Shown here piece after piece: positions 4,280 through 28,169 of a DNA stretch of 46,578 bases. A program made the position numbers and the translations under genes. Source of the stretch: an uncultured Gemmiger sp. (lineage in GTDB: Bacteria; Bacillota; Clostridia; Oscillospirales; Ruminococcaceae). The notes under the pieces were generated by a model. It saw nothing but the letters and a program-made list of their open reading frames with translations, was not told the origin of the DNA and did no database searches. Numbering within the stretch: the first letter of the stretch is position 1; each line of letters starts with the position of its first letter. The stretch lies in contig CALXIA010000013.1 in assembly GCA_944388245.1 (NCBI GenBank), forward strand, positions 1 through 46,578, written 5' to 3'.

Positions 4280-5251
4280 ATGGCAAGCCCATCAACCATA
4301 GCGCGATCGCCAGCCAGTAAAACGGCATGGCAGCGCTTTGTCGCATACATGCGCAAGTACTGGTTCATTTATCTGCTTGTGCTGCCCGGGCTGATCTGCA
4401 TGATCGTGTTCAACTACGGCACCATGTACGGGATCCAGCTGGCGTTCAAGGACTATTCGCCCCGGGCGGGCGTATGGGGCAGCCCCTGGGCCGGCTTTTC
4501 CCACTTCCGGGATATGATCGAGGATCCCAACTTTATCCGGGCGCTGAAAAACACCGTGATCATCAACGTGTACAAGCTGGCGTTCGGATTCACCTTCAAC
4601 GTGCTGCTGGCGCTGCTCATCAACGAGATGAAGATCCGCAAGGTCAAAAGCGTGGTGCAGACCTGCGTATACCTGCCCTATTTTCTGTCCTGGGTCATCT
4701 TCGCGGGTCTGGTTCAGGTATTTCTGGAATACCCCAGCGCGGCGGATATGGGCGGTGTGGTGAACCAGGTCATTGTTTCGCTGGGCGGGACCCCCATCGA
4801 CTTTTTGAAGAGTCCGGGGTTGTTCCGCGGCATCCTGACCGTATCCAATATTATAAAGACCGCCGGTTACTCCGCGATCGTGTACTTCGCGGCGATCGCC
4901 GGCATCGATCCCACCCTGTATGAATCCGCCGCCATCGACGGGGCCAACCGCAAGGATATGATGATCCATATCACGCTGCCCCGCATCCTGCCCAGTGTGG
5001 CGGTCATGCTGATTCTGGAACTGGCCGGCCTGTTCATCTCCAACTTCGACCAGGTCTACAACCTGTACAGCAACTATGTGCTCTCCACCGGCGACGTGCT
5101 CTCCACCTACATCTACCGCATCAGCCTGGGAGGCGGCACCGAGTTTGAGCTTTCCACCGCCATGAACCTGGTCATGAACCTGCTGGGCCTGGTGGTGGTG
5201 CTGCTGGCCAACAAGATCATCGAACGCCTTGACGTGCAGGGCATCTTCTAA
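4280..5251 (+). CDS. ABC sugar transporter permease, LplB type (CUT1)
   Basis: An inner-membrane permease of about 323 residues with six predicted membrane segments. The first starts near residue 30 (YWFIYLLVLPGLICMIVF). The cytoplasmic coupling loop is seen as AAAIDGANRKDMMIHITLP, the EAA motif that docks with the ATPase. An in-frame ATG at 4265 exists, but GGAGGTGA at 4267-4274 sits five bases before the ATG at 4280, which decides the start. It pairs with the YtcP-type permease 12 bases downstream and the lipoprotein at 6250. LplB/YtcP/LplA-type systems import di- and oligosaccharides, often acidic plant or host glycans. No ATPase gene is nearby, so a shared MsmK/MsmX-type ATPase is presumably encoded elsewhere. 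Confidence 0.92.
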   Translation: MASPSTIARSPASKTAWQRFVAYMRKYWFIYLLVLPGLICMIVFNYGTMYGIQLAFKDYSPRAGVWGSPWAGFSHFRDMIEDPNFIRALKNTVIINVYKLAFGFTFNVLLALLINEMKIRKVKSVVQTCVYLPYFLSWVIFAGLVQVFLEYPSAADMGGVVNQVIVSLGGTPIDFLKSPGLFRGILTVSNIIKTAGYSAIVYFAAIAGIDPTLYESAAIDGANRKDMMIHITLPRILPSVAVMLILELAGLFISNFDQVYNLYSNYVLSTGDVLSTYIYRISLGGGTEFELSTAMNLVMNLLGLVVVLLANKIIERLDVQGIF

Positions 5252-5263
5252 GGGGGCGAGAGT

Positions 5264-6193
5264 ATGAAACCATCCTCCTCAAACGGCACACCCTATCGCC
5301 GTTCCATGCTGTCCCGTTTCGGATTCAACTTCTACGATATTTTCGTGTATGTATTCTGCATCCTCTTCGCCCTGCTGTGCGTGTACCCCATGTGGTACGT
5401 GCTGGTGGCCTCCATCACCCCCTACGAAGAGTACGTCAAGGGCGGGCTGATGCTGTGGCCCCGGGGCGGGATCGATCTGCAATACTACATCGCCATCTTC
5501 AGCACCCGCAGCTTTATCAACAGTCTGTGGATCTCGGTCAGCAAGACGGTGCTGGCCACCGGGCTCTCGGTGCTGGTGACCTCCACCATGGCCTACGCGG
5601 TGAGCAAGACCCAGGTGCGCGGCATGAAGGTGATCAACGCGCTGGTGGTGTTCAACCTGTTCTTCTCCGGCGGCCTGATCCCCCAGTACATCCTGTACCA
5701 GGATCTGCATCTGCTGCGCAGCTACTGGGTCATGGTGATCCCCGGCGCGCTGAACATCACCTACTTCATCATCATGCGCAACTACTTCACCTACTCCATC
5801 CCCAAGGACCTGGAGGAGGCCGCCAAACTGGACGGCTGCACCGACGTAGGGGTGTTCTTCCGGGTGGTCATGCCCATCTCCCGCTCGATGATCGCGGCGG
5901 TGACCCTGTTCATCGCGGTGATCAACTGGAACGACTACTACAACTACATGATGTTCATCGGCAACAAGACCAACCTGCAGCCCTTCGCCTGGGTGCTGCG
6001 CCGGATGCTGGTGGACCAGTCCATGATGAACACGGTGCGCAACGGCGCGGCAGGGATGGGCCTTGAACTGCCCCCGCCGATGGCCCTGCGGATGGCTACC
6101 ATCATCTGCGCGATGCTGCCGATCATGTGCGTGTACCCCTTCCTGCAAAAGCACTTTACCAGCGGCATCACCCTGGGCGCGGTAAAGGAATAA
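5264..6193 (+). CDS. ABC sugar transporter permease, YtcP type (CUT1)
   Basis: The 309-residue second permease of the first importer. It has an N-terminal cytoplasmic tail, a first membrane helix near residues 25-45 (FVYVFCILFALLCVYPMW), six membrane segments overall, and the EAA loop EEAAKLDGCTDVGVFFRVVMP. The C-terminus is of the type TLGAVKE, typical for YtcP-like proteins. AGGGGG precedes the ATG. It forms a heterodimer with the LplB-type permease upstream. It is clearly paralogous to the protein at 14501, sharing long blocks such as VFCIL-FALLCVYPMWYV and PPPMALRMATIICAMLP. Import of an oligosaccharide is the expected role; the substrate is unknown. Confidence 0.92.
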   Translation: MKPSSSNGTPYRRSMLSRFGFNFYDIFVYVFCILFALLCVYPMWYVLVASITPYEEYVKGGLMLWPRGGIDLQYYIAIFSTRSFINSLWISVSKTVLATGLSVLVTSTMAYAVSKTQVRGMKVINALVVFNLFFSGGLIPQYILYQDLHLLRSYWVMVIPGALNITYFIIMRNYFTYSIPKDLEEAAKLDGCTDVGVFFRVVMPISRSMIAAVTLFIAVINWNDYYNYMMFIGNKTNLQPFAWVLRRMLVDQSMMNTVRNGAAGMGLELPPPMALRMATIICAMLPIMCVYPFLQKHFTSGITLGAVKE

Positions 6194-6249
6194 ACGGTGC
6201 TTCAAGCCAGCAAAGGCTTTTGAACTTATAACCAAAAGGAGGAAACACG

Positions 6250-7992
6250 ATGAAACCCAGATCCAAGCGAATTGCAGCCACACTTCTTTGTTTGGTCATG
6301 CTGCTGTCCGTCCTGAGCGCCTGCGGCAGCACCTCTTCGGCGCCGCCGGCATCCCAGTCCGGCTCCGCGAGCACAGGCGGAGCACCGCTGACCAACGCCG
6401 ACCGGGAGACCGTTAACATCCGGTTCGCCCAGTTCGGCAACAACACCGACGATGTGACCGGCATGGAGAACGATCCCATCAAAAAGGCGATCGAAGAAGC
6501 CGTGAACATCACCCTGGAGTACGACACCGGCACCGAGGGCTTTGACGACCGGATGCAGAACGAGCTCTTCACCGGTGGCGCGGCCGATCTGTTCCCCACC
6601 TGGGGCGAGAGCGAAAAGCTGGCGGACTGGGTCAATGAAGACCTGGTGACCAACCTGTCCGAGATCGTCAACGCGGATCCCGAGCGCTATCCCACCCTGT
6701 ACAAGATCATGAACAGCGACGAGTACAAGATGTACAACGAACTGTACACCGGCGACCCGGATACCGCCTACGCGATCTACGGCATCTCCGCCTTTGCCGA
6801 GCCCACCTTCTCCGGCGTTCCGGCCTACAACACCGCCATTCTGGAGGAAGTGAACGGCGGCAAGGTTCCCGCCACCGTGGAGGAGTTCGTGGAGTTCACC
6901 AAGGCCTGCGCGGACGCCGGCTATGTGGGCTGGTGGCCCCGCAACGACAAGCTGACCAACTGGAAAGCCATTGACGCCACCCTGGCGGAGCCGCAGGGCA
7001 CCACCATCATGCCTCCGAAGGCCGACCTGTGGGACGGCTTTATGCTGAGCGGTGAGTTAGGGACCGATTCGGAATACTGGACCCTGGCCACCACCAGCGA
7101 CGCCAGCAAGGAGGTCGTCAAGCAGCTGCGCGACATGTACGCGGCCGGCGGCCTGGACAGCGGCATCGGCGTCAAGAGCGACTTTGACGACGCCTACGCC
7201 GCCTTCGGCGCCGGGCAGCTTGCCAGCGCGGACTTCGGCTTCGGCTATCCGGCCCAGTACAAGGACTTCTTCAACAACCCCTGGGCCGCCACCAACCCGG
7301 ACGCCAAGCCGGAAGATCTGACCCTGGGCACCGCGCTGACCTCTGACGGCAACTACGGCAAGACCTACACCACCGGCACCTGGGTGGGCAGCCACTACTT
7401 CATCCCCACCACCTGCGAGTATCCCGACCGGGTCCTGGATCTGGTGGAGTTCATCGCCAGCACCGAAGGGCAGGATCTGCTGCACAACACCCAGAACTAC
7501 GTCTACCGGGAAGACCAGGGCGCCGATTTCTGGCAGACCGCTACCGCCCCCTACGGCTACGGCGACGGCCGCTGCAAGTACGTCTGGTTCAGCTACATGT
7601 TCAGCGGCACCGAGTACCAGGTCAACTTCGCTGACAACGACTGGTGGACCGCCGTTTCCAACCCCATCGACCACAGCGCCCACTGGGCCAGCGAGCAGGA
7701 CGCCGCTCTGATGGAATACGCCCGCGATGTGGTCTCGGCTTTCCGCGACGACTGCGTTGTGGTTCTGCCCGCCTACTACAACCTGGTTTCCCTGCCCTCC
7801 GAGGCCAACGACATCCGCACCAAGCTGGTGGACGTGACCAACGAGTACCTGAGCCAGATGATCGGCGGTCAGATGGACATTGACACCGGCTGGGCCGATT
7901 ATGTGGCCGCCTACGAGCGCGAAGGCGCGGCGGAACTGGAGCAGATGGTCAACGAGGCCATTGCCACCGCCCGCACCACCTACGGCAGCTGA
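6250..7992 (+). CDS. Extracellular solute-binding lipoprotein of the first CUT1 importer (LplA type)
   Basis: A 580-residue binding protein. A signal peptide of hydrophobic residues 8-22 ends in the lipobox LSAC, with Cys25 as the lipid-anchored residue, followed by a Ser/Ala/Gly-rich linker to about residue 50. The mature part starts ETVNIRFAQFGNNTDD and has the two-lobe pattern of family-1 binding proteins. It is long, as LplA/YtcQ members usually are. AAAAGGAGG lies before the ATG. It captures the oligosaccharide outside the cell and delivers it to the two permeases just upstream. A strong hairpin follows the gene at 8017-8047 and probably lets the binding protein be made in excess. It is a close paralogue of the lipoprotein at 15511. 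Confidence 0.92.
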   Translation: MKPRSKRIAATLLCLVMLLSVLSACGSTSSAPPASQSGSASTGGAPLTNADRETVNIRFAQFGNNTDDVTGMENDPIKKAIEEAVNITLEYDTGTEGFDDRMQNELFTGGAADLFPTWGESEKLADWVNEDLVTNLSEIVNADPERYPTLYKIMNSDEYKMYNELYTGDPDTAYAIYGISAFAEPTFSGVPAYNTAILEEVNGGKVPATVEEFVEFTKACADAGYVGWWPRNDKLTNWKAIDATLAEPQGTTIMPPKADLWDGFMLSGELGTDSEYWTLATTSDASKEVVKQLRDMYAAGGLDSGIGVKSDFDDAYAAFGAGQLASADFGFGYPAQYKDFFNNPWAATNPDAKPEDLTLGTALTSDGNYGKTYTTGTWVGSHYFIPTTCEYPDRVLDLVEFIASTEGQDLLHNTQNYVYREDQGADFWQTATAPYGYGDGRCKYVWFSYMFSGTEYQVNFADNDWWTAVSNPIDHSAHWASEQDAALMEYARDVVSAFRDDCVVVLPAYYNLVSLPSEANDIRTKLVDVTNEYLSQMIGGQMDIDTGWADYVAAYEREGAAELEQMVNEAIATARTTYGS

Positions 7993-8098: not shown

Positions 8099-9328
8099 AT
8101 GGCACCGAATAAACTCAGCGATCCGTCCGGCCGCGGCCGCGTAGAAGGCTACAAGGTCATTTTCCCCCAGATGCAGCACCCGTACACCGAGGCGGAGATC
8201 CAGGCGGTCGTGAACGTGATGCGCAACGCCGAGGGACAGACCCAGGGCAAATATCTGGAAAAATTTGAAAAGGATTTTGCCGAATTCGTGGGCGCCAAGT
8301 ACGCCTTCGGCGTGAACAACTGCACCAACGCCCTGAAGCTGGCCGCCATCTTCTGCCACATCCATCCCGGCGACGAGGTCATCGTGCCCGCCTACACCTA
8401 CTGCGCCTCCGCCATCCCCTTTGGCGATCTGGGCGCCCAGATCGTATGGGCTGACATCAACCCCGACACCTGGACCATCAACCCGGACGATTTTGAGCGC
8501 AAGATCACCCCCAAGACCAAAGCGGTGGTGGCGGTACATCTGCTGGGCATCCCCTGCGACATCAAGCGGATCGTGGCCATCGCCCGCCGGCACGGCGTCA
8601 AGGTGGTGGAGGACTGCGCCCAGGCGATGGACTGCCGTGTGGACGGCCAGCATGTGGGCACCTTTGGCGATTTCGGCTGCTTCAGCTTCCACGCCGCCAA
8701 GACCATGACCACCCTGGGCGAGGGCGGCATGTTCGTGTGCAGCGACGACCAGGTGGCCCACAACGTGCCCGGCATCCGCCACAACGGCCTGTGCGCCTTT
8801 GCCGGCGAGCGGGAACGCTACTGGGTGCCCGCCATGAGCAATGTGGACGAGTTTCTGGAGGACCGCTGGCCCCAGAACTTCTGCATCGGGGAAGCCCAGT
8901 GCGCGCTGGGCTCCGAACAGCTCAAGAGCGTCATCGCCAACAACGAGATCCTGATCGAGCAGGACCGCCGGATCCGGGAGTGGCTCAAGGATGTGCCGGA
9001 GATCACCTTCCCCAAGATCGTGGAGGGCGGCCGGTACGTGGTACATCAGTACATCATGCACTACGACGGCAGCAAATACGGCAAGACCCGGGACGATCTG
9101 CTGGATCTGCTGACCAAGAAATACGGCGTGCGCGCCATTGTGCAGTATTATCCCCTGTATCGCTATCCCCTGTTCCAGAAAAAGGGCTGCGGCGCCTACG
9201 ACTGCCCGGTGCTGGACGCCTGGTGGGACAACAGCTTCTCCTTCCCCTGGTGGTGCGGCATTGACGACGAGAGCATGCGCATCATGTGCGAGGGCCTGAT
9301 CCACGCTGTGGAGGATCTGCGCGGCTGA
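8099..9328 (+). CDS. DegT/DnrJ/EryC1/StrS-family PLP-dependent aminotransferase
   Basis: A 409-residue fold-type I PLP enzyme. VVEDCAQA holds Asp172, which pairs with the pyridine nitrogen. GCFSFHAAKTMTTLGEGG holds Lys201, the Schiff-base lysine, at the expected distance. AAGGAGG lies before the ATG. Family members usually move an amino group from glutamate to a keto sugar, mostly on nucleotide sugars during biosynthesis, and a few act on free keto-cyclitols or run in the deaminating direction. Here the gene lies in a catabolic importer operon, directly after the binding protein and before a NAL-type lyase. Deamination of an imported amino sugar is therefore a plausible but unproven role. There is no sign of truncation. 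Confidence 0.88.
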   Translation: MAPNKLSDPSGRGRVEGYKVIFPQMQHPYTEAEIQAVVNVMRNAEGQTQGKYLEKFEKDFAEFVGAKYAFGVNNCTNALKLAAIFCHIHPGDEVIVPAYTYCASAIPFGDLGAQIVWADINPDTWTINPDDFERKITPKTKAVVAVHLLGIPCDIKRIVAIARRHGVKVVEDCAQAMDCRVDGQHVGTFGDFGCFSFHAAKTMTTLGEGGMFVCSDDQVAHNVPGIRHNGLCAFAGERERYWVPAMSNVDEFLEDRWPQNFCIGEAQCALGSEQLKSVIANNEILIEQDRRIREWLKDVPEITFPKIVEGGRYVVHQYIMHYDGSKYGKTRDDLLDLLTKKYGVRAIVQYYPLYRYPLFQKKGCGAYDCPVLDAWWDNSFSFPWWCGIDDESMRIMCEGLIHAVEDLRG

Positions 9329-9458: not shown

Positions 9459-10361
9459 ATGTTTGACAAAACACGTTTTCAAGGCCCGGTAGCGCCGGTG
9501 GTATGCCCCTGCACCGAAACCGACGAGATGGACTGGGCGGCGCTGGAAAAGAACTTCGCCCGCCTGGCCGCCTCGCCGGTGGCCGGCCTCTACATCAACG
9601 GCGGCACCGGGGACGCCGCCAACCTGACCGATCAGGAGCGGGCCGACGTGGCCGCGTATATGGTGCCGCGGCTGAAGCGCCAGGGCAAGCTGGCCATCGT
9701 CCATGTGGGCCAGACCACCCAGCGCGGCGCCCAGCGGCTGGCCTGCCAGGCGGCGGAACTGGGCGCGGACGCGGTGGCCAGCATTCCCCCGAAAAAAGAC
9801 TGGCCCCAGATCGCGGACTATTACCGCGCCATCGCGGCGGCCGGCCTGCCGGTGATCGTCTACTACATCCCCGGCGTGACCGGGATGACGGCCGGCCTGC
9901 CCCAGCTGCGCACCCTGCTGGAGATCCCGGGGGTGGCGGGGATCAAAATGAGCGACTGGAACGTTTTTCTGCTGCACAGCGTGTGCGCCGAGTACCCGGA
10001 CAAGGTGGTTTACTCCGGGTTTGACGAGATGCTGGTGCCGGGCCTTTTGTATGGGGCCGACGGCTGCATCGGCACCTGGATGAACCTGCTGCCCGACCTT
10101 TACGCGAAGGTCTACGCCCGGGTCCGGGCCGGCGAGCTGGCTTCGGTGCTGCCGGTCATGAACGCGTTCAACGATTTTCTGGCTATGGGCTGGAAATACG
10201 GCATCCTGGACGCCTTTGAGGAGTTGATGCGGGCCAAAGGCTATGCCGATCGCTGTTTCCGCCGTCCCTCCTCCTGGAATCCCGGCAAGCTGCCGGAACC
10301 GGTGCTGCAGGAGATGCTGCGCCGTCTGGAGCGTCTGGAAGAGGACGCCGCCCGCCTGTAA
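9459..10361 (+). CDS. Dihydrodipicolinate synthase/N-acetylneuraminate lyase-family protein
   Basis: A 300-residue class I aldolase barrel. GGTGDAANLT at about residues 48-57 matches the carboxylate-binding G-TGE segment of the family. VYYIPG around residues 134-139 carries the proton-relay tyrosine, and GIKMSDW has Lys163, which forms the Schiff base with pyruvate or a keto acid. Glu of the usual GTGE is Asp here. AGAGGGAA precedes the ATG. In a locus with two sialidase-fold proteins and a SASA esterase, cleavage of a 2-keto-3-deoxy acid such as a sialic acid or KDG-like sugar acid is likely. Family proteins also include dihydrodipicolinate synthases, but the context argues against lysine synthesis. 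Confidence 0.88.
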   Translation: MFDKTRFQGPVAPVVCPCTETDEMDWAALEKNFARLAASPVAGLYINGGTGDAANLTDQERADVAAYMVPRLKRQGKLAIVHVGQTTQRGAQRLACQAAELGADAVASIPPKKDWPQIADYYRAIAAAGLPVIVYYIPGVTGMTAGLPQLRTLLEIPGVAGIKMSDWNVFLLHSVCAEYPDKVVYSGFDEMLVPGLLYGADGCIGTWMNLLPDLYAKVYARVRAGELASVLPVMNAFNDFLAMGWKYGILDAFEELMRAKGYADRCFRRPSSWNPGKLPEPVLQEMLRRLERLEEDAARL

Positions 10362-10397: not shown

Positions 10398-11312
10398 ATG
10401 CAATATTCGCTGATTCCCGCAACAGACCTCCGCGTCAGCCGCATCTGCCTGGGCACCATGACCTTCGGCAGCCCGGTGGCGGAGCCGGACGCGATCCGCC
10501 TGATCCACTACGCGCTGGAGGAGCGCGGCATCAATTTTATCGACACCGCCAACATGTACGAGGGCTACAACCGGGTGGCCGGCAGCGCGGGCGGCGTGGC
10601 GGAGGAGATCATCGGCAAAGCCCTTGCCGGCCGGCGCGACCGGTATGTGGTGGCCACCAAGGTGGGCATGAAGGTGGGCGAAGCCCCCGAGGACGAGAAC
10701 ACCAGCCCGCTGGCGATCCGCACCCAGCTGCGCCGCAGCCTGCGCCGGCTGCAAACCGACTATGTGGACATCTACTACCTGCACCGCTTTGACCCGAACA
10801 CCGAGCCCCAGGCCATTGCCCGGGCCATCGGGGAAGAGCTGCACGCCGGCACCATCCGCGCCTGGGGGGTCAGCAACTACACCGCCGCCCAGCTAAAGGC
10901 CCTGCTGGCCGCCGCCCGCGCCGAGAACATCCCCGCGCCCGCCCTGTGCCAGCCGGCGCTGAGCCTGCTGAACCGGGGCGCGCTGGAGGACCTGCTGCCC
11001 CTGTGCGAGAAAAACGGCATCGGCGTGGTGCCCTACCAGGTGCTGCAGGGCGGGGTGCTGACCGGCAAATACAAGCGGGGCCAGGCCGCTCCCCAGGGCA
11101 GCCGCCTGGCGGAAAAGCCCGAATGGCTGAAGCCCTTCACCGACGAGGTATACGAAGTGCTGGAACAGTGCGAACAGGCCGCGCAGGCCGCCGGCATCTC
11201 CATGACCCAGTACGCGCTGCGGTGGGCGCTGGAGCAGCCCGCCGTCGTCAGCGCGCTGATCGGGGTCAAGCGCACCGACCAGATCGACGAGGCCGCCCTG
11301 GCCGCCCGGTGA
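10398..11312 (+). CDS. Aldo/keto reductase
   Basis: A 304-residue NADPH-type reductase barrel. The catalytic tetrad is visible as Asp49 and Tyr54 (FIDTANMY), Lys88 (VATKVG) and His129 (YYLHRFD). WGVSNYTAAQL follows at the usual place, and the cofactor-binding end is ALIGVKRTDQID. AAAAAGGAGAA lies before the ATG. The protein stops shortly after this motif (AALAAR), about 10-25 residues earlier than most relatives, which may just be a short C-terminus. It follows the lyase by 36 bases and precedes the Asp-box protein, so it probably reduces or oxidises an aldehyde or keto sugar produced in the same route. Confidence 0.9.
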   Translation: MQYSLIPATDLRVSRICLGTMTFGSPVAEPDAIRLIHYALEERGINFIDTANMYEGYNRVAGSAGGVAEEIIGKALAGRRDRYVVATKVGMKVGEAPEDENTSPLAIRTQLRRSLRRLQTDYVDIYYLHRFDPNTEPQAIARAIGEELHAGTIRAWGVSNYTAAQLKALLAAARAENIPAPALCQPALSLLNRGALEDLLPLCEKNGIGVVPYQVLQGGVLTGKYKRGQAAPQGSRLAEKPEWLKPFTDEVYEVLEQCEQAAQAAGISMTQYALRWALEQPAVVSALIGVKRTDQIDEAALAAR

Positions 11313-11342
11313 TCTCTGCCGCGAACAGGAGAGGTGTTTTGT

Positions 11343-13148
11343 ATGACCCGCGCGTTTTCCCGCGCCGTCCCGCTGGGCGGTGCCTGTGAAGAACATATCG
11401 TCTACCAGCCCCGGGTGCGGCCCGGTTTTGTGGCCTGGGCCACCGCCTTCTCCTACGGCGACGGCAGCGTGGGGGTCTCCTTCGACGAGGTGACCGCCGA
11501 GGACAACCCGGATTTTTCACCGGCCACGCTGGAATACGCCGAGGCGGCGGGGGTGCCGGTCTCCTACGGCACGGTGGAGACCGGCAGCGCCCGGCAGACC
11601 TCCCGCCGGGTCTATCTGCGCACCCGGGACGGCCGCACCTTTACCGAGACCGGCCGCTGCCCCCGAGCGGAGGGTTCCCTCTGCGCGGCCGGATTCCCGG
11701 ACGGGCGGATCCTGGGCTTTGACGTGCCCCGCCGCAACGAGAGCGGCACCGGCTGGTGCGATTTCATCCGGGTGCGGGAAAGCCTGGACGGCGGCTCCAC
11801 CTGGCGGGACGTCTGCCGCCTGCTGGAGGGCTGCGCGCCTTACCTGTGGCGGGTGCGGCGGCTGAAAAGCGGCGAGATCCTTCTGCTGGCCTCCCTCTAC
11901 GGCACGCCCTGGGGGCCGGGCCGCCCGCGCGCCACCCGGAACACCATGCTGCCCGGCGAGACCTACGAGAGCAAGATCCAGACCTTCTTTCTCACCAGCC
12001 GGGACGGGCGGCGGTATTCCGGCCCCCACTACGTTCTGCCGGGCATCGGCGCCCACGAGTTCGACGTGGCGGAACTGCCCGACGGGCAGCTGCTGTTCAT
12101 CGCCGGGGACGTGCAGGGCACCCCGGTGGGCCGCCAGCTGCTGCGCCGGGACGGGGAGGGCTGGATCAACGGCACCCTGTTTCCCATCCGGGACGGCGCG
12201 CCCCCCGATCCCCGGGCCGATCCCCAGGGCGGGTTCGTGCCCGAGACCATCGTGTGGGACGAGGCGGAACGCTGCCTGATCGGTTACCGCCGCAACCGCT
12301 GCTTTTCCATCTCCAACGACCTGGGGGAAAACTGGACCCCGCTGGAACCGCCCGTTCCCCTGTCGCCGCTGTATCAGCCCATGCTGATCGCCCTGGCGGA
12401 CGGCGCGCTGGCGCTGTTCGGCCACATCGGCGGGGACGTATCCTTCGGGCAGACCGACACCCACATCGCCGTGCAGCGCATCCGCCCCCAGGCGGCGGCA
12501 CAGCTGCCCCGCCCCACGGAACTTTCGCTGGAGCGCTGCCTCCATGCCGACGGCAGCCGGTACGAGAACCGGTTCCGCGCCCGGCTGACCAGCGGCGGAA
12601 CCCCGCTGGCCGGGCAGAGGGTGGTGTTCCGCTTTACCCGCTTCTGGAATGAGGACGGCAGCGTGAACAAACAGCCGCTGGACCAGGCTCCTTTCCAGAA
12701 AGAAGCCGTCACCGACAGCGAGGGCTTCGCCACCGCGTCCGCCCACTGGTTCGACGGTGTGGGGGACATTCATCTGGCGTATAACCTGGACGTGGTATGC
12801 CCCGGCGGCGAACATCTGCGCGGCTGCGCCGGGCCGTCCATGACGGTGCTGGCGCTGACCCCGGTGCGCGGCTGCCCGTTCCCCTACGACGCGTACTTCG
12901 CGGGCGGCACCCTCTACCTTTCGCCGGATTTCCAGCGGGATTTTCCCCAGGCGGCCGATCTGCTGGCCGCCTGCGCCGGCGCGGATGAAGTGCCGGTGGA
13001 CCGCCTGCCCCCGCGGGCGGCGGAGCGCCTGGCCGCCTGCGGCGTGACCTGCCAGGAAAACGGGCGCACCGTCTGGATTTCCAGCGTACACGCCCCCCGC
13101 CGGCTGGACCGGGTTTGCCCCATGGCCGCCGGCGACTGGTACCGCTGA
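11343..13148 (+). CDS. Asp-box (BNR) sialidase-fold protein, cytoplasmic
   Basis: A protein of about 601 residues. AGGAGAGG at 11327-11334 lies eight bases before the ATG at 11343; a GTG at 11334 is inside that site and is less likely. At least two Asp-boxes are visible, SLDGGSTW at residues 147-154 and SNDLGENW near 325, plus degenerate copies such as TRDGRTF, so a six-bladed propeller is expected. A beta-rich C-terminal part of about 200 residues follows. There is no signal peptide. The segment where true sialidases carry the RIP arginine reads YQPRV here, so sialidase activity is uncertain. It is the last gene before a hairpin and a new promoter, and probably acts on the imported glycan. 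Confidence 0.8.
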   Translation: MTRAFSRAVPLGGACEEHIVYQPRVRPGFVAWATAFSYGDGSVGVSFDEVTAEDNPDFSPATLEYAEAAGVPVSYGTVETGSARQTSRRVYLRTRDGRTFTETGRCPRAEGSLCAAGFPDGRILGFDVPRRNESGTGWCDFIRVRESLDGGSTWRDVCRLLEGCAPYLWRVRRLKSGEILLLASLYGTPWGPGRPRATRNTMLPGETYESKIQTFFLTSRDGRRYSGPHYVLPGIGAHEFDVAELPDGQLLFIAGDVQGTPVGRQLLRRDGEGWINGTLFPIRDGAPPDPRADPQGGFVPETIVWDEAERCLIGYRRNRCFSISNDLGENWTPLEPPVPLSPLYQPMLIALADGALALFGHIGGDVSFGQTDTHIAVQRIRPQAAAQLPRPTELSLERCLHADGSRYENRFRARLTSGGTPLAGQRVVFRFTRFWNEDGSVNKQPLDQAPFQKEAVTDSEGFATASAHWFDGVGDIHLAYNLDVVCPGGEHLRGCAGPSMTVLALTPVRGCPFPYDAYFAGGTLYLSPDFQRDFPQAADLLAACAGADEVPVDRLPPRAAERLAACGVTCQENGRTVWISSVHAPRRLDRVCPMAAGDWYR

Positions 13149-13286: not shown

Positions 13287-13357
13287 TTTTTACTAAAGCA
13301 AGCGCCCGCTTTTTGAACATACGATTGCTTGACACCAGACCAAATTGCTGTTATATT
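13287..13357 (+). promoter_or_regulatory. Promoter with upstream conserved module, second importer operon
   Basis: TTGACA at 13329-13334 and TATATT at 13352-13357 are separated by 17 bases. TTTTTACTAAAG at 13287-13298 and GCTTTTTGAAC at 13308-13318 repeat the blocks before the first importer with identical spacing, and TTGC directly before the -35 is also shared. The flanking sequence is otherwise diverged, which points to selection for a regulator site. Confidence 0.78.
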
Positions 13358-13492
13358 GTAGACATACTCTAGATTATCAGGATTATTTTGCTGTGACAGG
13401 ATGCAAAACGCCAGTCAAGCGCGGCAGCTTTTTAGCAACAAACCTCAAATAATATTAGTAAACATTCATTCAGGAAACGGAGGCGACTCAAC

Positions 13493-15476: not shown

Positions 15477-15510
15477 GCGAACACATCTTGCAATAAAAGG
15501 AGGAAACAAA

Positions 15511-18395: not shown

Positions 18396-18422
18396 ATCCT
18401 ATCGGAAGGTGGGAGTCCTCTG

Positions 18423-19747: not shown

Positions 19748-21181
19748 ATGAACTATGGCGTTACCATCACCGGGGGCGCGGTCCCCTGGCAGATCTTTCA
19801 GCAGAATCAGGAGGGCTTTGCCTCCATCCGGCTGCGGGGGGACTATCACCTGATCCACCTGTCCCAGGAGCTACCGCTGGAATTTTCCCCGGTGGCGCCG
19901 GCCCGGGCCACCGTCAAGGCCCGCGTCGCCCGGGAGGACACCGGCGAATCGGTGATCCCCTGGACCGAGTGCCGCATCCCGGCGCCGGGAACCTGGGAGA
20001 TCACCTTTGACCGGGTGCCCGCCGGCGGGCTGTACCGGATCGAGACCACCATGGACTACGAGGGCTGGGACGGGCTGTCCTGCACCCGGGGGGACATGAT
20101 CCACCACATCGGCGTGGGGGATGTGTTCGTGATCGCCGGGCAGAGCAACGCGGCGGGCCGGGCCAAAAATCCGGTGGACGACCCGCCGGAACTGGGCATT
20201 CACCTGCTGCGGCCCAGCGGCCGGTGGGATCTGGCCGTGCACCCGCTGGGCGAGACCACCGGCGCGGTGCATGTGGGCCATTACGAAAACCACAATCCGG
20301 GCCACAGCCCCTGGCTGCACTTTGCCAAACGGCTGCGCCGGGAACTGGGCTACCCCATCGGGCTGGTGCCCTGCGCCTACGGCGGCGCGCCGCTGCGCTG
20401 GTGGAACCAGGAGGAAAACGGCGCGCTGACCGCCAACATGCTGGCCATGCTGGCCGACTACGACCTGCACCCGAAGGCGGTGCTCTGGTACCAGGGCGAG
20501 GCGGAGGGCTACGAAAACAGCGCCGGGACCTATCTGGAACGGTTCACCGCCACGGTGGCCCAGATCCGCCGGGCGCTGGGCCAGCCGGATCTGCCCTTTC
20601 TGACCGTGCAGCTGAACCGCTGCGTGGAGGGCCCCACCGAGGCGCTGGACCGCCAGTGGGGCATGGTGCGGCAGGCCCAGCGGCAGGCCATGTACACCAT
20701 CCCCCAGGTGACGGTGGTGCCCGCCGCCGACCTGGCCCTGTACGACTTCATCCACAACTCCGCCGAGAGCAACCTGGTGGTGGGCGAACGGTGCGCCCGG
20801 GCGGCTCTGGCCGTCTGCTACGGCCGGGAGATCGACTGGATGGCCCCCGAGCCGGACCAGGTGCGGCAGACCGGGCCGGCGACCATCGCGGTGCGGTTTT
20901 CCCGCATCCGCAACTGGCTCAACTGCTTCGGCATGCCCGCCGATCTGCTGCCCTTTGACGCGGAGGATGACCAGGGGCTGGTGCATCCCTGCGCCTACAC
21001 CGAGGGCACCGACACCCTGACCCTGACCTTCCCCCGGCCGCTCACCGGCACGGTGCGGCTGCACGGGGGCTGGCGGATGAACCCGGGGCTGACCGTGCCC
21101 TGCGACTGTATGCGGATGCCCATGCTCAGCTTCTATGGTGAGCCGGTGCTGCCCGCCGACCAACAGGAGGAAACGCCGTGA
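19748..21181 (+). CDS. Sialate O-acetylesterase-family (SASA) esterase, cytoplasmic
   Basis: A 477-residue SGNH-type hydrolase. VGDVFVIAGQSNAAGR carries the nucleophile Ser133, a second family block WYQGEAE is at 247-253, and Asp333/His336 (YDFIHN) complete the triad. An N-terminal beta domain of about 115 residues precedes the catalytic part, and a short beta domain follows it. There is no signal peptide. Family members remove acetyl groups from sialic acid or plant polysaccharides. The strong AAAGGAGG is part of the hairpin described for 19711. It is the first of six tightly packed genes (to 26316) and overlaps the next by four bases. An O-acetylated oligosaccharide as imported substrate is the simplest reading. 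Confidence 0.87.
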   Translation: MNYGVTITGGAVPWQIFQQNQEGFASIRLRGDYHLIHLSQELPLEFSPVAPARATVKARVAREDTGESVIPWTECRIPAPGTWEITFDRVPAGGLYRIETTMDYEGWDGLSCTRGDMIHHIGVGDVFVIAGQSNAAGRAKNPVDDPPELGIHLLRPSGRWDLAVHPLGETTGAVHVGHYENHNPGHSPWLHFAKRLRRELGYPIGLVPCAYGGAPLRWWNQEENGALTANMLAMLADYDLHPKAVLWYQGEAEGYENSAGTYLERFTATVAQIRRALGQPDLPFLTVQLNRCVEGPTEALDRQWGMVRQAQRQAMYTIPQVTVVPAADLALYDFIHNSAESNLVVGERCARAALAVCYGREIDWMAPEPDQVRQTGPATIAVRFSRIRNWLNCFGMPADLLPFDAEDDQGLVHPCAYTEGTDTLTLTFPRPLTGTVRLHGGWRMNPGLTVPCDCMRMPMLSFYGEPVLPADQQEETP

Positions 21182-23232
21182 AGGATCCCTTTGCCTATAT
21201 TTTCCGTTTCTGCTGCGACCCGGGCTTCAACGACCAGGCGGAACTGGCCGCGCTGGACCGGTTTGTGGACAAAGCCCTTGTGGACGATGTGGCGGTGTTC
21301 GCCAATGTGGAGGAACTGAACACCGGCCACATGGGCCGGGAGGAGCAGGACCTGTACCTGGCCCTGATGACCCGGGTGCGGGATCTGCTGGCCGGGCGCG
21401 GGATCAGCTTTTCGGTGAACCAGTGGCACAGCGTCATGCACGCCGACCTGGGCAAGCGGCTGGGCGAGGAACAGCCCTTCCGCCCGATGGTGGACGCCCA
21501 CGGCCGGGCGGCAAGCCTCTGTGTCTGCCCGCTGTGCGCCGAATGGCAGCGCTACATTGCCCGGCTGTACGCCCGGTACGCCATGCTGGATCCCTCCATC
21601 GTCTGGGTGGAGGACGATTTCCGGCTGCACAACCATGAACCGCTGGACTGGGGCGGCTGCTTCTGCGAGGAGCACATGAAACTGTACAGCCAGCGGGCGG
21701 GCAAACCCCTCACCCGGGAGGAGTTCGTGGCCGGGGTATTGCAGCCCGGCGAGCCCCATCCCTACCGGAAGATCTGGCTGGACGTGAGCCGCGAGACCAT
21801 GCTCAGCGCGGCCCGGGCCATTGGCCGGGCGGTGCGGGCGGTGTCCCCCCGGGTACAGGTGGGGCTGATGAGCTCCACCCCCCACGCCCACGCCGCCGAG
21901 GGCCGGGACTGGTACGCCTTGCTGCGGGAGCTGGCCCAGGGGCTGGCGCCGGTGGACCGCATCCACCTGCCCGGCTATCAGGAGACCGCCCCCGGCCAGT
22001 ACATGCAGGGATTCAATATGGTCTCGATGCTCAACCGGGCGCTGCTGCCCCCGGAGACCCGGGTCTACCCGGAACTGGAGAACTACCCCTTCTCCCGCTA
22101 TTCCAAATCCCGCCGGTTCACCCGGTTCCAGCTGCTCAGCGCCCTGGCGCTGGCGCCGGACGGCATCACCATCGACCTGTACGATCTGAACGGCAACGGC
22201 ATCGTCTGGGAGGAGGGCTACCAGACCACCCTGCGCGCCACAAAGCCCTATCTGAACGCCCTCACCGAAGGCGGGCTGCTGCGGGGCAAGCGGCTGGGGG
22301 TGCAGGTGCTCTGCTGCCCGGACTCCGCCTATACCCTGCACACCGATGCCGGGGTCTCGATGGAGGAACTCTATCCCAAGGAGGGGTTCTGGGGCGGGCT
22401 GCTGCCCGCCATGGGCATTCCCTGCGTCTACTGCACCGATCCCGCCGCCCTGCGCGGCCAGGTGGTGGCCGCCGCCGGCCAGGTGCTGCGCAACTGGTCC
22501 GACGAGGTGCTGGAAGGGCTGTTCCGGGACAACTTCCTGCTGCTGACCGGCGACGCCGCTCAGGTCCTCTGCGAGCGGGGGCTGGGGCGGCTGGCCGGGC
22601 TGGAATCGGTGCACTGGATGCGCCAGAACCAGGGGGAATACGCCTTTGAACAGGTGACCAACGGCAAGGAATACGCCGGCCGGCCCCGGGCCCGGGCCTC
22701 GGCGGTGATCTCCTGCAGCGACGCGGTGGCGGTGACCTATCGCCCGGACGCGGAACTGTTTGAATACACCGCCCTGTACGATTCCTTCCGCCAGCGCGCC
22801 GCCGCCGGCCAGGTGGTGGTGAACGGGCGGGCGCTGGTGTATCCCTTTGGCAATTTTGAATCGCCGGTGCAGATCCCGCCCATGCTGCTGAATACGGTGC
22901 GGGCGGAGATTTTGCAGGATGTGCTGCGTGCCGCCGGGCTGGAGCTGCCGATGGTGGAAAACAGCCCCTATCTGGAGCCCTACTGCTTTGCGGACGAGGC
23001 CGGCGGCACGGCTTTGTATCTGGTCAACGCCGCCACCGATCCGGTGGACTGCGTGCGGCTGGCCGGGCTGCCCGCCGGGCCGCTGACGGTCTGGCGCTCG
23101 GAAAAAGGCGGCGAGGCGGAACGGGTGTTTGTCCGGCACACCAAGACCGGCGCGGCGGTGGACCTGCCGCTGAACAGCATGGAGACGATGCTGCTGTACT
23201 GGCGGCACGGGGAAGGAGAGGATCCGGAATGA
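21178..23232 (+). CDS. Unclassified TIM-barrel glycoside-hydrolase-like protein
   Basis: A 684-residue cytoplasmic protein that I cannot place in a named family. The GTG start overlaps the esterase stop, with AGGAGG seven bases before it. Residues 1-330 have the alternating pattern of a barrel. CVCPLC at 115-120 and CFCEEH at 161-166 could form a metal site as in GH42 beta-galactosidases. WVEDDFRLHNH at 143-153 and YPELENYPFSRYSKSRR at 297-313 offer the acidic residues Glu145 and Glu299/Glu301. Residues 350-560 look like a second, Rossmann-like domain of the kind that follows GH42 barrels, and the last 80 residues look like a beta sandwich. It sits between an acetylesterase and an Asp-box protein, so a glycosidase role is likely but unproven. 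Confidence 0.7.
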   Translation: MKDPFAYIFRFCCDPGFNDQAELAALDRFVDKALVDDVAVFANVEELNTGHMGREEQDLYLALMTRVRDLLAGRGISFSVNQWHSVMHADLGKRLGEEQPFRPMVDAHGRAASLCVCPLCAEWQRYIARLYARYAMLDPSIVWVEDDFRLHNHEPLDWGGCFCEEHMKLYSQRAGKPLTREEFVAGVLQPGEPHPYRKIWLDVSRETMLSAARAIGRAVRAVSPRVQVGLMSSTPHAHAAEGRDWYALLRELAQGLAPVDRIHLPGYQETAPGQYMQGFNMVSMLNRALLPPETRVYPELENYPFSRYSKSRRFTRFQLLSALALAPDGITIDLYDLNGNGIVWEEGYQTTLRATKPYLNALTEGGLLRGKRLGVQVLCCPDSAYTLHTDAGVSMEELYPKEGFWGGLLPAMGIPCVYCTDPAALRGQVVAAAGQVLRNWSDEVLEGLFRDNFLLLTGDAAQVLCERGLGRLAGLESVHWMRQNQGEYAFEQVTNGKEYAGRPRARASAVISCSDAVAVTYRPDAELFEYTALYDSFRQRAAAGQVVVNGRALVYPFGNFESPVQIPPMLLNTVRAEILQDVLRAAGLELPMVENSPYLEPYCFADEAGGTALYLVNAATDPVDCVRLAGLPAGPLTVWRSEKGGEAERVFVRHTKTGAAVDLPLNSMETMLLYWRHGEGEDPE

Positions 23233-24272
23233 AAGCGAAGATCATCGACCGCAAATGGGTGGTGGAGTGGTTTGACGAGCGGCAGTGCTACCACATGCCC
23301 AGCCTGACTTTGGCGGACAACGGCAACCTGCTGGCGGTGTGGAACGGCGGGTTCCTGCAATGGAACGGGGACCCGATGGGCCGGGACGCCAAGGACTGGG
23401 TCTCGGTGCTAAAGCCGGGCGCGAAGGCCTGGTCCAACCCGGACGCGGTGGGCTGCGACATCCGCTACTGCTGCCACGACCCGGTGTTTCTCAAGAACCG
23501 CAAGGGGGAGATCATCCTGCTGTTCGCCAAGTTTCTGGACACCGAGGTGAACTTCACCACCTGGTGCAACGGGCGGGACGAGCTGTGGATGCGCAAGACA
23601 AAGGACGGCGGCCGCACCTGGGAGCCCGCCGTGCCCGCCGGCATCCAGAGCGGCCACGCCTCCAACGACAGCGTGCTGCTGGCGGACGGCACCATCGTGT
23701 TTGCCTCCACCTCCAGCGAGCTGCCGGACAAGTATTTCGGCGCGGTGCGGATCTACCTGTCCCACGACGACGGCGAGACCTGGGAAAAAGGCCCGCTGCT
23801 CTGGGCGGAGGACGGCAACCTGATCCGGGAGCCGGCCCTCTGCCTGCGGCCGGACGGCACCATCCGGATGTTCACCCGCACCTGCCCGGGCAACACCGGC
23901 TGGGGCGACGGGGTCAAATCGCTGGTGTCCTACACCGCCGAGAGCCGGGACGGAGGCCGCACCTGGACCAAACCGGTGCCCACCGGCATCCGGAACAACG
24001 AATCCAAGATCGACGTGATCAGCTGGGACAAGGACACCATCCTGATGGCCTACAACGACACCCCGGTGGCCGACTGGCACGAGCGCAGCCCCCTGACCCT
24101 GGCCTATTCCAAGGACGAGGGCATGACCTGGACCAACCTGATCGAACTGGCCAGCGCGCCGGGCAACAAATGCCAGCCCGCCATCTGCAAGGACCGGGAG
24201 GGCCGGCTGAACGTGATCTACATGCACCGTCACACCGCCATCGAGCATCTGGTGGTGGAGATCGAAGACTGA
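23229..24272 (+). CDS. Asp-box (BNR) sialidase-fold protein, second copy
   Basis: A 347-residue protein, close to the length of a single six-bladed propeller. Four Asp-boxes are visible: TKDGGRTW (124-131), SHDDGETW (178-185), SRDGGRTW (239-246) and SKDEGMTW (294-301). No signal peptide is present. True sialidases begin with an arginine in an FRIP-like motif before the first strand; here the same place reads CYHMPSLTLADNG, with His22 instead. The catalytic Glu/Tyr pair was not assigned. The protein is therefore probably a hydrolase or lyase on another acidic sugar, or a degenerate relative. The start overlaps the previous stop by four bases, and the ThrE-type gene follows after 12 bases. Confidence 0.82.
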   Translation: MKAKIIDRKWVVEWFDERQCYHMPSLTLADNGNLLAVWNGGFLQWNGDPMGRDAKDWVSVLKPGAKAWSNPDAVGCDIRYCCHDPVFLKNRKGEIILLFAKFLDTEVNFTTWCNGRDELWMRKTKDGGRTWEPAVPAGIQSGHASNDSVLLADGTIVFASTSSELPDKYFGAVRIYLSHDDGETWEKGPLLWAEDGNLIREPALCLRPDGTIRMFTRTCPGNTGWGDGVKSLVSYTAESRDGGRTWTKPVPTGIRNNESKIDVISWDKDTILMAYNDTPVADWHERSPLTLAYSKDEGMTWTNLIELASAPGNKCQPAICKDREGRLNVIYMHRHTAIEHLVVEIED

Positions 24273-26361: not shown

Positions 26362-26372
26362 CCGTCAGGGGC

Positions 26373-26401
26373 TTGGAGCGCGGCCGATTCCATAGTATAC
26401 T
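26373..26401 (+). promoter_or_regulatory. Probable promoter of the GH2 gene
   Basis: TTGGAG at 26373-26378 and TATACT at 26396-26401 are separated by 17 bases. The -10 is strong and the -35 matches only its first three positions. It lies 28 bases before the ATG, so the leader is very short. Confidence 0.6.
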
Positions 26402-26429
26402 GGTAGCATAGAGAACAGGAGGGACGGCC

Positions 26430-28169
26430 ATGTTTTACGATCTCTACACCCCCGAGGGCGAGGCCCTGACCGGCGTTCCCTGGCCGGACTATCCCCGGCC
26501 CCGGCTGCGGCGGGACAGCTTTTTCAACCTGAACGGCCTGTGGGAGTTCACCGCCCGGCCCGGGAGCGATCTGCCCGAACGCTACGACCGGACCATCCAG
26601 GTGCCCTTCTGCCCGGAGAGCCTGCTGTCCGGGATACATACCCATTTTCCGGAGGGGTGGTATCTGTTCTACCGGCGGCGGTTCACCCTGCCGGAGGGGT
26701 TTATCCGCAGCCGGGTGCTGCTGCAGATCGGCGCGGCGGACCAGGTGCTGGACGCCTGGCTGAACGGCGTTTACCTGGGCAGCCACACCGGCGGCTACGA
26801 GCACATCACCTTTGCGATCACCGGCGCGCTGGACGCGGAGAACGAACTGGTGCTGCGGGTGCGGGACGATCTGCGGGACAACCGGCTGCCCTACGGCAAA
26901 CAGACCCTGAAGCGGGGCGGCATGTGGTACACGCCGGTGTCCGGCGTATGGCAGACCGTCTGGCTGGAGAGCGTGCCCGACCGGTACATCCGGCAGCTGG
27001 ATGTGCGCGCCGATACCGTTCGGGCGGTGCTGGATACCGGCGACGCGGCGCTGACCGGCACGGTGACGGTCCAAACCCCGGACGGCGTGCTGACCGTGCC
27101 GCTGGAGCGGGGCCGGGCCCAGATCGCGCCGCCCTCGCCCCGGCTCTGGAGCCCGGAGGACCCCTATCTGTACGCCTGCACGATCCAGGCCGGCGAGGAC
27201 CGGGTGGAGAGCTATTTCGCCCTGCGAACGGTGGAGATCCGGCAGGTGGGCGGGTATGCCCGGCTCTGCCTGAACGGAGAGCCCTACTTCTTCCACGGGG
27301 TGCTGGACCAGGGCTACTACAGCGACGGGCTGTTCACCCCCGCCAGCCCCGCCTGCTACGAACGGGACATCCGCGCCATGCAGGCGCTGGGCTTCAACAC
27401 CCTGCGCAAACACATCAAGGTGGAGCCGGACATCTTCTACACCCTCTGCGACCGGCTGGGGATGGTGGTATTCCAGGACATGGTGAACAACGGGGACTAC
27501 CGCTATCTGCGGGACACGGTACTGCCCACCGCCGGCTGGCAGCGCCGGCGCAGCGATGGGCGGATGCACCGGGATCCGGCCGCCCGGGCGGCGTTTCTGG
27601 CCGGGATGGAGGCCACGGTGGCCCAGCTGAAGCCCTACCCCTGCATCCTGTACTGGACCATCTTCAACGAGGGCTGGGGGCAGTTTGAAGCGGGCAACGC
27701 CTGCCGGCGGCTGCGGGAACTGGACGACAGCCGGATCATCGACAGCACCTCCGGCTGGTTCCGGGGCGGCGAGACCGATGTGGACAGCCGCCACATCTAC
27801 TTTGGCCCCTGGAAACTGGACGCGGGGGAAAAGCCGCTGGTGCTCTCCGAGTTTGGCGGCTGCTGCCTGCCGGTGGAGGGGCACATGTTCCACCCGGACA
27901 AAGCCTACGGCTACAGTTCCTGCAAGACCCGGGAGGAGTTTGCCCGGGCCATTCAGACGCTGTACGAGCGGCGGGTGCTGCCGGTGGTGGCCAAGGGCCT
28001 GTGCGCCGCCATCTACACCCAGCTGTCCGACGTGGAGGATGAGATCAACGGCCTGGTGACCTACGACCGCCGGGCCGTCAAGCTGGACCAGGCGCCCATG
28101 CGGGAACTGGCGGCCCGTCTGCGGGCGGCGCTGGGCGGCAAGGAGCCCTTTCCTTGCATAAAGCGCTAA
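26430..28169 (+). CDS. Glycoside hydrolase family 2 enzyme
   Basis: A 579-residue cytoplasmic GH2 protein. An N-terminal jelly-roll domain (LNGLWEFTARPG to VWLESVP, about residues 29-190) carries the sugar-binding motif YRRRFTLP. An immunoglobulin-like domain of about 100 residues follows, then the barrel. Glu414 in YWTIFNEGWGQF is the expected acid/base, and Glu474 in LSEFGG the expected nucleophile. AGGAGGG lies before the ATG. Length is near that of beta-glucuronidases and short beta-galactosidases, and there is no signal peptide. It stands alone between its own promoter and that of the next gene. Beta-galactosidase, beta-glucuronidase or beta-mannosidase activity cannot be told apart by eye. 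Confidence 0.9.
   Translation: MFYDLYTPEGEALTGVPWPDYPRPRLRRDSFFNLNGLWEFTARPGSDLPERYDRTIQVPFCPESLLSGIHTHFPEGWYLFYRRRFTLPEGFIRSRVLLQIGAADQVLDAWLNGVYLGSHTGGYEHITFAITGALDAENELVLRVRDDLRDNRLPYGKQTLKRGGMWYTPVSGVWQTVWLESVPDRYIRQLDVRADTVRAVLDTGDAALTGTVTVQTPDGVLTVPLERGRAQIAPPSPRLWSPEDPYLYACTIQAGEDRVESYFALRTVEIRQVGGYARLCLNGEPYFFHGVLDQGYYSDGLFTPASPACYERDIRAMQALGFNTLRKHIKVEPDIFYTLCDRLGMVVFQDMVNNGDYRYLRDTVLPTAGWQRRRSDGRMHRDPAARAAFLAGMEATVAQLKPYPCILYWTIFNEGWGQFEAGNACRRLRELDDSRIIDSTSGWFRGGETDVDSRHIYFGPWKLDAGEKPLVLSEFGGCCLPVEGHMFHPDKAYGYSSCKTREEFARAIQTLYERRVLPVVAKGLCAAIYTQLSDVEDEINGLVTYDRRAVKLDQAPMRELAARLRAALGGKEPFPCIKR

Follow-up and report, generated by a model that had tools for sequence, protein, structure and literature searches.

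Which glycan is taken up by a bacterial locus that joins two sugar importers, an acetylesterase, two sialidase-fold proteins, a lyase and an aminotransferase, and by which route is it broken down? We addressed this question for contig C13 of an uncultured Gemmiger sp., the entire 46,578 bases of which form the window analysed here; the genome (G000) comprises 1.97 Mb in 64 contigs and is 75% complete. An earlier sequence-only reading had placed the locus at 4280..28169 and proposed an acidic or acetylated substrate. We favour, with a probability of roughly 0.5, a catabolic regulon for an acetylated, amine-bearing oligosaccharide that would be deaminated by transamination.

Extent and gene content of the locus

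The features of the window are as follows (aa, amino acids; ORF, open reading frame).

2..424, minus strand: AraA-type sugar isomerase, N-terminal 140 aa, cut by the contig start; its G020 orthologue (L035) matches Pfam Arabinose_Iso_C and AraA_central
443..1924, minus strand: FGGY-family sugar kinase, xylulokinase-like, under the equivalog cut-off (family scan); conserved in the cluster
1921..2760, minus strand: class II aldolase of a distinct subfamily, motif SKINIFTHNNL (family scan, motif comparison)
2784..3926, minus strand: Gfo/Idh/MocA dehydrogenase 1 (family scan); conserved
4110..4138, plus strand: promoter-like site TTGACA-17-TATAGT, TG before the -10 (consensus match only)
4235..4249, no strand: operator-like palindrome in the divergent promoter region (mismatch scan)
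4265..5251, plus strand: importer A permease 1, alternative start 4349 (family scan)
5264..6193, plus strand: importer A permease 2 (family scan)
6250..7992, plus strand: importer A binding lipoprotein (lipobox; without a Pfam match of its own, 54% identical to binding protein B)
8099..9328, plus strand: DegT-family aminotransferase, nearest models PseC and WecE (PF01041, 286.5 bits)
9459..10361, plus strand: N-acetylneuraminate lyase (NAL)-like class I aldolase (family scans, residue alignment)
10398..11312, plus strand: aldo/keto reductase (AKR) (family scan; relatives' loci)
11343..13148, plus strand: 601-aa protein with a sialidase-like (BNR) part (profile match); the 604-aa ORF starts at 11334
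13329..13357, plus strand: promoter-like site TTGACA-17-TATATT, TG before the -10 (consensus match only)
13451..13465, no strand: second operator-like palindrome (mismatch scan)
13493..14485, plus strand: importer B permease 1 (family scan)
14501..15433, plus strand: importer B permease 2 (family scan)
15475..17283, plus strand: importer B binding lipoprotein, likely start 15511 (lipobox; DUF3502 21.6 of 24.4 bits)
17394..18344, plus strand: PHP/CehA-like metallohydrolase (under the Pfam and NCBIfam cut-offs)
18378..19655, plus strand: MFS carrier, PgtP/GlpT-like, likely start 18423 (family scans)
19748..21181, plus strand: SASA-family acetylesterase, no signal peptide seen (143.6 bits, cut-off 24.8)
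21178..23232, plus strand: 684-aa predicted glycosidase with a fold like glycoside hydrolase (GH) families GH42 and GH151 (predicted structure)
23229..24272, plus strand: 347-aa sialidase-fold protein (BNR_2) without the sialidase tyrosine and first arginine (profile, fold, alignment)
24285-25058 and 25055-25528, plus strand: split ThrE-type exporter, loosely attached (family scan)
26430-28169, plus strand: GH2 enzyme, outside the locus (family scan)

On the plus strand, two permeases and binding protein A are followed by the DegT, NAL-like, AKR and 604-aa genes; after a gap of 344 bases, a second series runs from the two permeases and binding protein B through PHP, MFS, SASA, the 684-aa and 347-aa genes and the ThrE halves to a gene of metallo-beta-lactamase fold. 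Overlaps of 4 bases join the 684-aa gene to SASA on one side and to the 347-aa gene on the other. The two importers are paralogous (permease 1, 67%; permease 2, 71%; binding protein, 54% identical). Family scans matched the importers, the acetylesterase, the NAL-type lyase, DegT and MFS as they had been named before, while the supposed PHP phosphoesterase is PHP-like but falls just under the Pfam cut-off (26.2 vs 26.4 bits).

The locus reaches left past the contig start. In three relatives (G202, G031 and G020), the cluster runs on leftwards through a divergent operon of Gfo/Idh dehydrogenase 1, class II aldolase, FGGY kinase, AraA-like isomerase, class III aminotransferase and Gfo/Idh dehydrogenase 2, beyond which lie a PfkB kinase, an HpaI aldolase, a D-2-hydroxyacid dehydrogenase and a LacI-type regulator. 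In this genome and in all three relatives, the importer genes and the kinase, aldolase and dehydrogenase 1 genes point away from each other. The window begins within the isomerase gene; a C-terminal part of the isomerase lies on contig C10 of this genome, at its end, together with the class III aminotransferase, the second dehydrogenase, the PfkB kinase, the HpaI aldolase and the LacI regulator. Judged by the gene order in the relatives, C10 and C13 are probably adjacent. The bounds 4280..28169 had left out the divergent operon (2-3926) and taken in the GH2 gene, and the gene list had also missed the aldo/keto reductase, the split ThrE and the metallo-beta-lactamase-fold gene.

The GH2 gene is real, and we rejected it as a member of the locus. 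No GH2 gene was present in any of the 24 related loci within their stretches, 14 of which extend at least 4.3 kb past the 684-aa gene (L091 gave a weak 26% match, below the 90-bit line of the synteny count); no palindrome precedes it in the window; and in G202 it lies about 10.5 kb past the 347-aa gene, with other genes between.

Hydrolase triad and sialidase-fold proteins

To define which genes travel together, we scanned named genomes with the 684-aa family and kept 80 of 118 relatives as loci; synteny was counted in the 24 loci with at least 50% identity in the 684-aa protein, over stretches of limited length (L080 and L082 are the genomes G202 and G031). Of the 23 loci whose upstream DNA suffices for a judgement, 22 have the end of the SASA gene next to the 684-aa gene; the 347-aa gene follows the latter in 18 of 19 scorable loci, L097 being the exception both times. 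Eighteen loci extend 8 kb or more upstream; in 17 of them DegT, NAL and AKR are all present (nine loci) or all absent (eight), and L086 holds AKR alone at the stretch edge. PHP and MFS occur in 4 of the 18, and 5 have neither the DegT set nor PHP-MFS. Based on these counts, the triad SASA/684-aa/347-aa is the constant core, and the DegT and PHP-MFS sets are accessories. L086 repeats the double layout of the window, with AKR and a 604-aa gene ahead of importer B, and L088 has no importer, the triad being immediately preceded by the regulator, dehydrogenase 2, class III aminotransferase, isomerase, kinase, aldolase and dehydrogenase 1.

These observations bear on the alternative that unrelated sugar genes came to lie side by side in this genome by accident. 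In its favour, the GH2 gene does not recur with the other genes and several of the accessories vary, but for the core the synteny counts contradict it: gene order that recurs across many genera is more than chance. The importer operons also share one layout of promoter-like site and palindrome, and we regard coincidence as exceedingly improbable.

The first member of the triad, SASA, retains S133, D333 and H336 in all 11 aligned sequences (the window and 10 of 27 found), which we take to be the catalytic Ser-Asp-His. The earlier proposal of an acetylated substrate is supported. No hydrophobic N-terminal stretch was detected in SASA, the 684-aa protein, both BNR proteins or GH2 by a hydropathy count, which is not a signal-peptide predictor, and the same check found a lipobox in both binding proteins. 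The earlier view that the hydrolases lack signal peptides, and that the glycan is imported before cleavage, is supported.

The 684-aa protein, previously called an unclassified hydrolase, indeed matched no Pfam or NCBIfam model; Pfam matched none of 12 family members (the window and 11 of 17 other matches), and a search of PDB sequences returned only unrelated matches with E up to 1, even with a 12-sequence profile. The protein is 91% identical to its G202 counterpart. Its AlphaFold2 model, for which the window sequence was combined with those of 65 of the 80 loci to give 66 in all (the other loci were dropped as truncated or of odd length), has a predicted local distance difference test (pLDDT) score of 96. 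In a Foldseek search, GH42 enzymes ranked first by E-value (4uni_B, 1.7e-20, template-modelling (TM) score 0.63), while the highest TM among the 50 best rows belonged to the GH151 alpha-L-fucosidase ALfuk2 (6tvk, 0.65/0.67, 12% identity). The match to 6tvk, to GH42 beta-galactosidases and to alpha-L-arabinopyranosidase (4uni, 5xb7) extends over the whole length of the fold. Compared with these GH151 and GH42 structures, the protein differs in its 12-14% identity, a root-mean-square deviation above 6 and the absence of a sequence-level match; membership in either family is supported by overall fold and not by sequence, as compared against Pfam, NCBIfam and PDB rather than CAZy models.

According to a review that describes ALfuk2 (PMC10154630), that enzyme consists of a catalytic domain (1-336), a Rossmann domain (341-558) and a C-terminal domain (560-660), with the nucleophile D154 after beta4 and the acid/base E235. 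The 684-aa model shows the same succession of barrel, Rossmann-like and C-terminal domain (PMC10154630). As candidates for the catalytic carboxylate pair, D146, D147, E241 and E299 are invariant in the 66 sequences, and D146 and D147 sit after the fourth barrel strand of the model. From the predicted fold, our guess is that this protein is a glycosidase acting on an alpha-L-fuco-, alpha-L-arabino- or beta-galacto-like sugar. If the reading favoured here is right, a family with a glycosidase fold and no sequence relative of determined structure is worth characterising.

Of the two proteins read earlier as sialidase folds, the 347-aa protein was confirmed by a BNR_2 match, and the 604-aa protein, which had no Pfam match, is sialidase-like by a family profile matching PDB sialidases (best 7lbu, E 7e-5). 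The 347-aa protein has the six-bladed BNR fold (profile match 8t26, E 6e-8; Foldseek 8gn6, E 3.9e-15, TM 0.69 by query length), in a model of pLDDT 81 in which residues 40-51 score under 50. Its family is strongly conserved (mean column identity 85% in 19 sequences), and in the same loci its identity to the window is 69-97%, against 53-91% for the 684-aa protein. Residues were compared by sequence alignment to a single reference, the FRIP-bearing G020 protein. In all 19 sequences, the first sialidase arginine (FRIP motif) is replaced by H and the nucleophilic tyrosine by Q, the position of the acid/base aspartate is a gap, and the glutamate and second arginine are kept. These replacements predict that the 347-aa protein cannot use ordinary sialidase chemistry. 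For the 604-aa protein, most catalytic positions fell in gaps and the alignment to sialidase is unreliable; hhalign related the two BNR families with a probability of 91.5, but over 75 columns only.

We considered the use of O-acetylated N-acetylneuraminic acid (Neu5Ac) sialosides, in which the BNR proteins would be sialidases, SASA a sialate O-acetylesterase and the NAL-like lyase the source of N-acetylmannosamine. The SASA enzyme, the sialidase folds and profiles, and a lyase whose best model is NAL (158.5 bits) fit this scheme. The lyase nevertheless scores far below both equivalog cut-offs (158.5 of 281 bits; 138.4 of 382), 9 of the 18 loci show no NAL-like gene, and the 347-aa residues argue against it. 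NanE was detected neither in G000 (75% complete) nor in G202 or G031; of the four cluster genomes, only G020 has one, about 19 kb beyond its cluster, and two of the three without it are 91 and 99% complete. Based on the NanE result and the active-site residues, we set the Neu5Ac pathway aside as very improbable. The proposal that the substrate is acidic is weak as well. It draws on the sialidase folds and on the NAL-like lyase, but the 347-aa protein lacks the tyrosine and first arginine, and half of the loci lack the lyase in their stretch.

The nan operon of the Ruminococcus gnavus type serves the use of sialic acid or 2,7-anhydro-Neu5Ac. The locus shares with it an ABC importer, a NAL-type lyase, SASA, a sialidase fold and a Gfo/Idh enzyme, and departs from it in that NanE was not found in three of the four genomes and in the altered 347-aa residues, with neither a NAL above the equivalog cut-off nor a NanE epimerase. 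It adds transaminases, an isomerase, an FGGY kinase, a class II aldolase and an unnamed glycosidase-fold protein. These differences uphold the earlier statement that it is unlike the standard nan operon. The accompanying claim that no NanE or NagB-type gene is visible stands for NanE and for the cluster, in which no NagB-type gene was seen; NagB-type genes do occur outside the cluster in all four genomes, in this genome as one copy on another contig. NanK and NagA were absent among the scanned cluster genes, the genomes themselves not being searched for them. For gut genomes labelled as encoding a 'sialidase', a residue check is needed before sialic acid use is inferred, and the 347-aa protein, strongly conserved with its catalytic residues partly replaced, would itself be worth characterising on the favoured reading.

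Operator-like and promoter-like sites

A palindrome, ATTATTASTAATAAT, searched with up to three mismatches, occurs in exactly two copies in the window (4235-4249 and 13451-13465), each just before an importer operon, against a mean chance expectation of 0.07, to be read with the fact that it had been discovered by comparing these same regions in a mismatch search and was then counted. It was also found between the LacI and PfkB genes on C10, in G020, and in G202, there with overlapping shifted matches. The site lies within 450 bases of the dehydrogenase 1 start in eight of the nine loci holding this gene. Among 25 loci scanned, 11 have a site near a cluster gene (L093, L094 and L150 with one further site elsewhere), two (L097 and L105) have sites only away from cluster genes, and 12 have none; in 10 of the latter, the sequence starts no earlier than the first importer gene. 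In the scanned stretch, the two top promoter-like sites each match at 11 of 12 positions, have TG before the -10 and lie 93-96 bases upstream of the palindromes. A search for even LacI palindromes with a CG centre gave nothing common to the regions, and no exact strong promoter was seen in L069.

The shared palindrome and the near-identical promoter-like sites before both importers favour the expected co-regulation of the operons, and suggest that the locus may be regulated as one LacI-controlled regulon. Separately, the importer promoter regions of L094, L096, L098 and L150 contain two palindromes about 180-220 bases apart, an arrangement that would suit repression by DNA looping.

A candidate route through transamination and its variants

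Under the reading we favour, a LacI-type repressor would control one catabolic regulon, and the two paralogous CUT1-type importers would take up closely related acetylated oligosaccharides. Cytoplasmic SASA would strip the acetyl groups, and the 684-aa TIM-barrel glycosidase and the sialidase-fold proteins would release the sugars. The sugar would bear an amine, which the class III enzyme, and DegT where present, would remove by transamination instead of NagB-type deamination, the resulting keto groups being reduced by the Gfo/Idh and AKR enzymes. The product would then pass through the AraA-like isomerase, the FGGY kinase and the class II aldolase to dihydroxyacetone phosphate and a short aldehyde. 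In loci that hold DegT, NAL and AKR, the route would also include a pyruvate-yielding cleavage by the NAL-like lyase. We infer the direction of the transaminase steps, the order of the steps and the identity of the sugar.

It is the sugar-processing half of the locus that points to an amine-bearing substrate. The DegT protein has its pyridoxal phosphate (PLP) lysine, aligned with that of perosamine synthase, and its nearest models are PseC and WecE and, lower, LegC, all C4 sugar aminotransferases. The class III aminotransferase matches PF00202 with 54 bits (cut-off 30.5), its best named model gives 52.8 of 494 bits, and its PLP lysine is kept in 15 of 15 sequences. Some match to it occurs in 261 of 391 genomes of the class, nearly all being weak general aminotransferases (E 7e-14 or worse). 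Beside this genome, we found 10 close copies in nine genomes (51-58% identity, one with an internal stop codon); an isomerase relative (24-26%) and an FGGY relative (22-30%) each accompany seven of them, and Gfo/Idh 2 (50-55%) lies near four of the ten. One such related operon (L076) encodes an alanine dehydrogenase and an esterase of the AXE1 family. The alanine dehydrogenase fits, but does not prove, transfer of the amine to pyruvate. As a further observation, L070-L079, from other families of the class, carry a module of class III aminotransferase, AraA-like isomerase, FGGY kinase and amidohydrolase without the cluster hydrolases.

The isomerase, FGGY kinase and aldolase recall the L-fucose and L-arabinose pathways. 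In contrast to those pathways, the isomerase scores 130.6 of 622 bits (AraA cut-off), the aldolase belongs to an FBA-like family with its own motif, and transaminases are present. The idea that the aldolase, without the 6-phosphate-binding arginine, acts on a 6-deoxy ketose was dropped: the four aldolases of the same genomes over the FBA cut-off also lack this arginine, which is present in five other aldolase paralogues. With NagA/NagB breakdown, the proposed route would share deacetylation followed by amine loss, but no NagA or NagB-type gene was seen in the cluster, and transaminases stand instead.

The same three enzymes and the NAL-like lyase would fit, on paper, a keto-deoxy acid from plants or lipopolysaccharide, namely 3-deoxy-D-manno-octulosonic acid (Kdo) or 3-deoxy-D-lyxo-heptulosaric acid (Dha): the lyase would yield pyruvate and D-arabinose, to be processed by isomerase, FGGY kinase and aldolase as in D-arabinose/fucose breakdown. 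Sialidase-fold enzymes acting on acids of this type exist. We consider this quite unlikely, as it leaves two transaminases without a role, and in G202 the isomerase, kinase and aldolase occur in a cluster that has no NAL-like gene.

The lyase retains Lys163 and Tyr135 in 12 of 12 sequences, and likewise Asp189-Glu190, aligned with the GYDE of a structurally known N-acetylneuraminate lyase. These residues and the DegT models would suit a nonulosonate of the legionaminic or pseudaminic type, cleaved to pyruvate and a diamino-trideoxyhexose from which DegT and the class III enzyme would remove the amines; two amines would explain two transaminases. As the likeness is at family level only, the 347-aa protein lacks the first sialidase arginine, and half of the 18 loci lack DegT and NAL, such a substrate appears unlikely.

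Returning to transamination of an acetylated, amine-bearing sugar, we gathered the observations that weigh against it. Each step is read from genes alone, the closest DegT models are biosynthetic, and transaminases also run biosynthetically. The isomerase-kinase-aldolase route is not uniform among relatives: L093 has PfkB, HpaI and dehydrogenase 1, but its stretch contains neither the class III aminotransferase nor the isomerase, kinase and class II aldolase; in L095, kinase and dehydrogenase 1 have no aldolase between them; and L098 keeps the kinase, with aldolase and dehydrogenase 1 both absent from the interval up to the importer. These variants lower our confidence. L097 has the 684-aa gene with neither SASA nor the 347-aa gene, five loci lack both accessory sets as counted above, and among cluster loci the class III aminotransferase was seen only in G000, G202, G031, G020 and L088, many other stretches ending earlier. 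The Paenibacillus mendelii stretch (L105) contains no isomerase, FGGY kinase or class II aldolase. On the regulatory side, the palindrome was counted in the regions that revealed it, and L080, a genome used in its discovery, has no site near dehydrogenase 1.

As to the sugar itself, our guess is a deoxy-amino or nonulosonate-like bacterial sugar; a rare deoxy-amino sugar might explain the bypass of the NagA/NagB route. A more specific proposal, which we hold to be doubtful, is a new route for breaking down an acetylated deoxy-amino sugar that occurs in bacterial surface glycans, with transaminases replacing NagB, followed by isomerase, FGGY kinase and aldolase, and with a new GH family (GH42/GH151-like fold) and a sialidase-fold enzyme of new chemistry. 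Among the papers listed by searches of the open-licence literature, none describes a pathway of this kind, subscription journals and preprints being outside that search. Should the transamination reading be right, gut Clostridia would be known to use one more sugar, probably a rare amino sugar unsuited to NagA/NagB. The reading could be tested with the isolate Anaeromassilibacillus sp. An200, which carries the cluster (L081), and a related Paenibacillus strain.

In P. mendelii, identities are 60% for DegT, 63% for AKR, 45% for NAL, 43% for SASA and 39% each for the 684-aa protein and the LacI regulator. By eye, and not by family matches, the ORFs in place of its isomerase route resemble an SDR, an IlvD-type dehydratase and another class III aminotransferase. 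Also by eye, 684-aa family members in L144, L151 and L152 (Streptomyces, Paenibacillus) lie near SDR- and/or IlvD-like ORFs, which suggests oxidative sugar pathways. In L104 (5776-13156), a 41%-identical 684-aa relative stands beside a PHP-like ORF, as PHP does in importer B loci, and its neighbours read, again by eye, as araD, araB and an arabinose-type isomerase.

ThrE1 is present in 5 of the 24 related loci, and the split ThrE-type amino-acid exporter might export an amino acid made by transamination. No tRNA was found in the window, and nothing in it reached the Rfam gathering score. Outside the cluster, the minus strand at 29516-38158 holds, from first ORF residues, a second sugar importer set (two permeases, an ATPase and two lipoproteins) and, after it, genes for a histidine kinase and a response regulator. 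At 39850-46578, also on the minus strand, ORFs resembling by eye polynucleotide phosphorylase, rpsO, ribF, truB, a DHH phosphoesterase, rbfA and infB form the usual translation operon.

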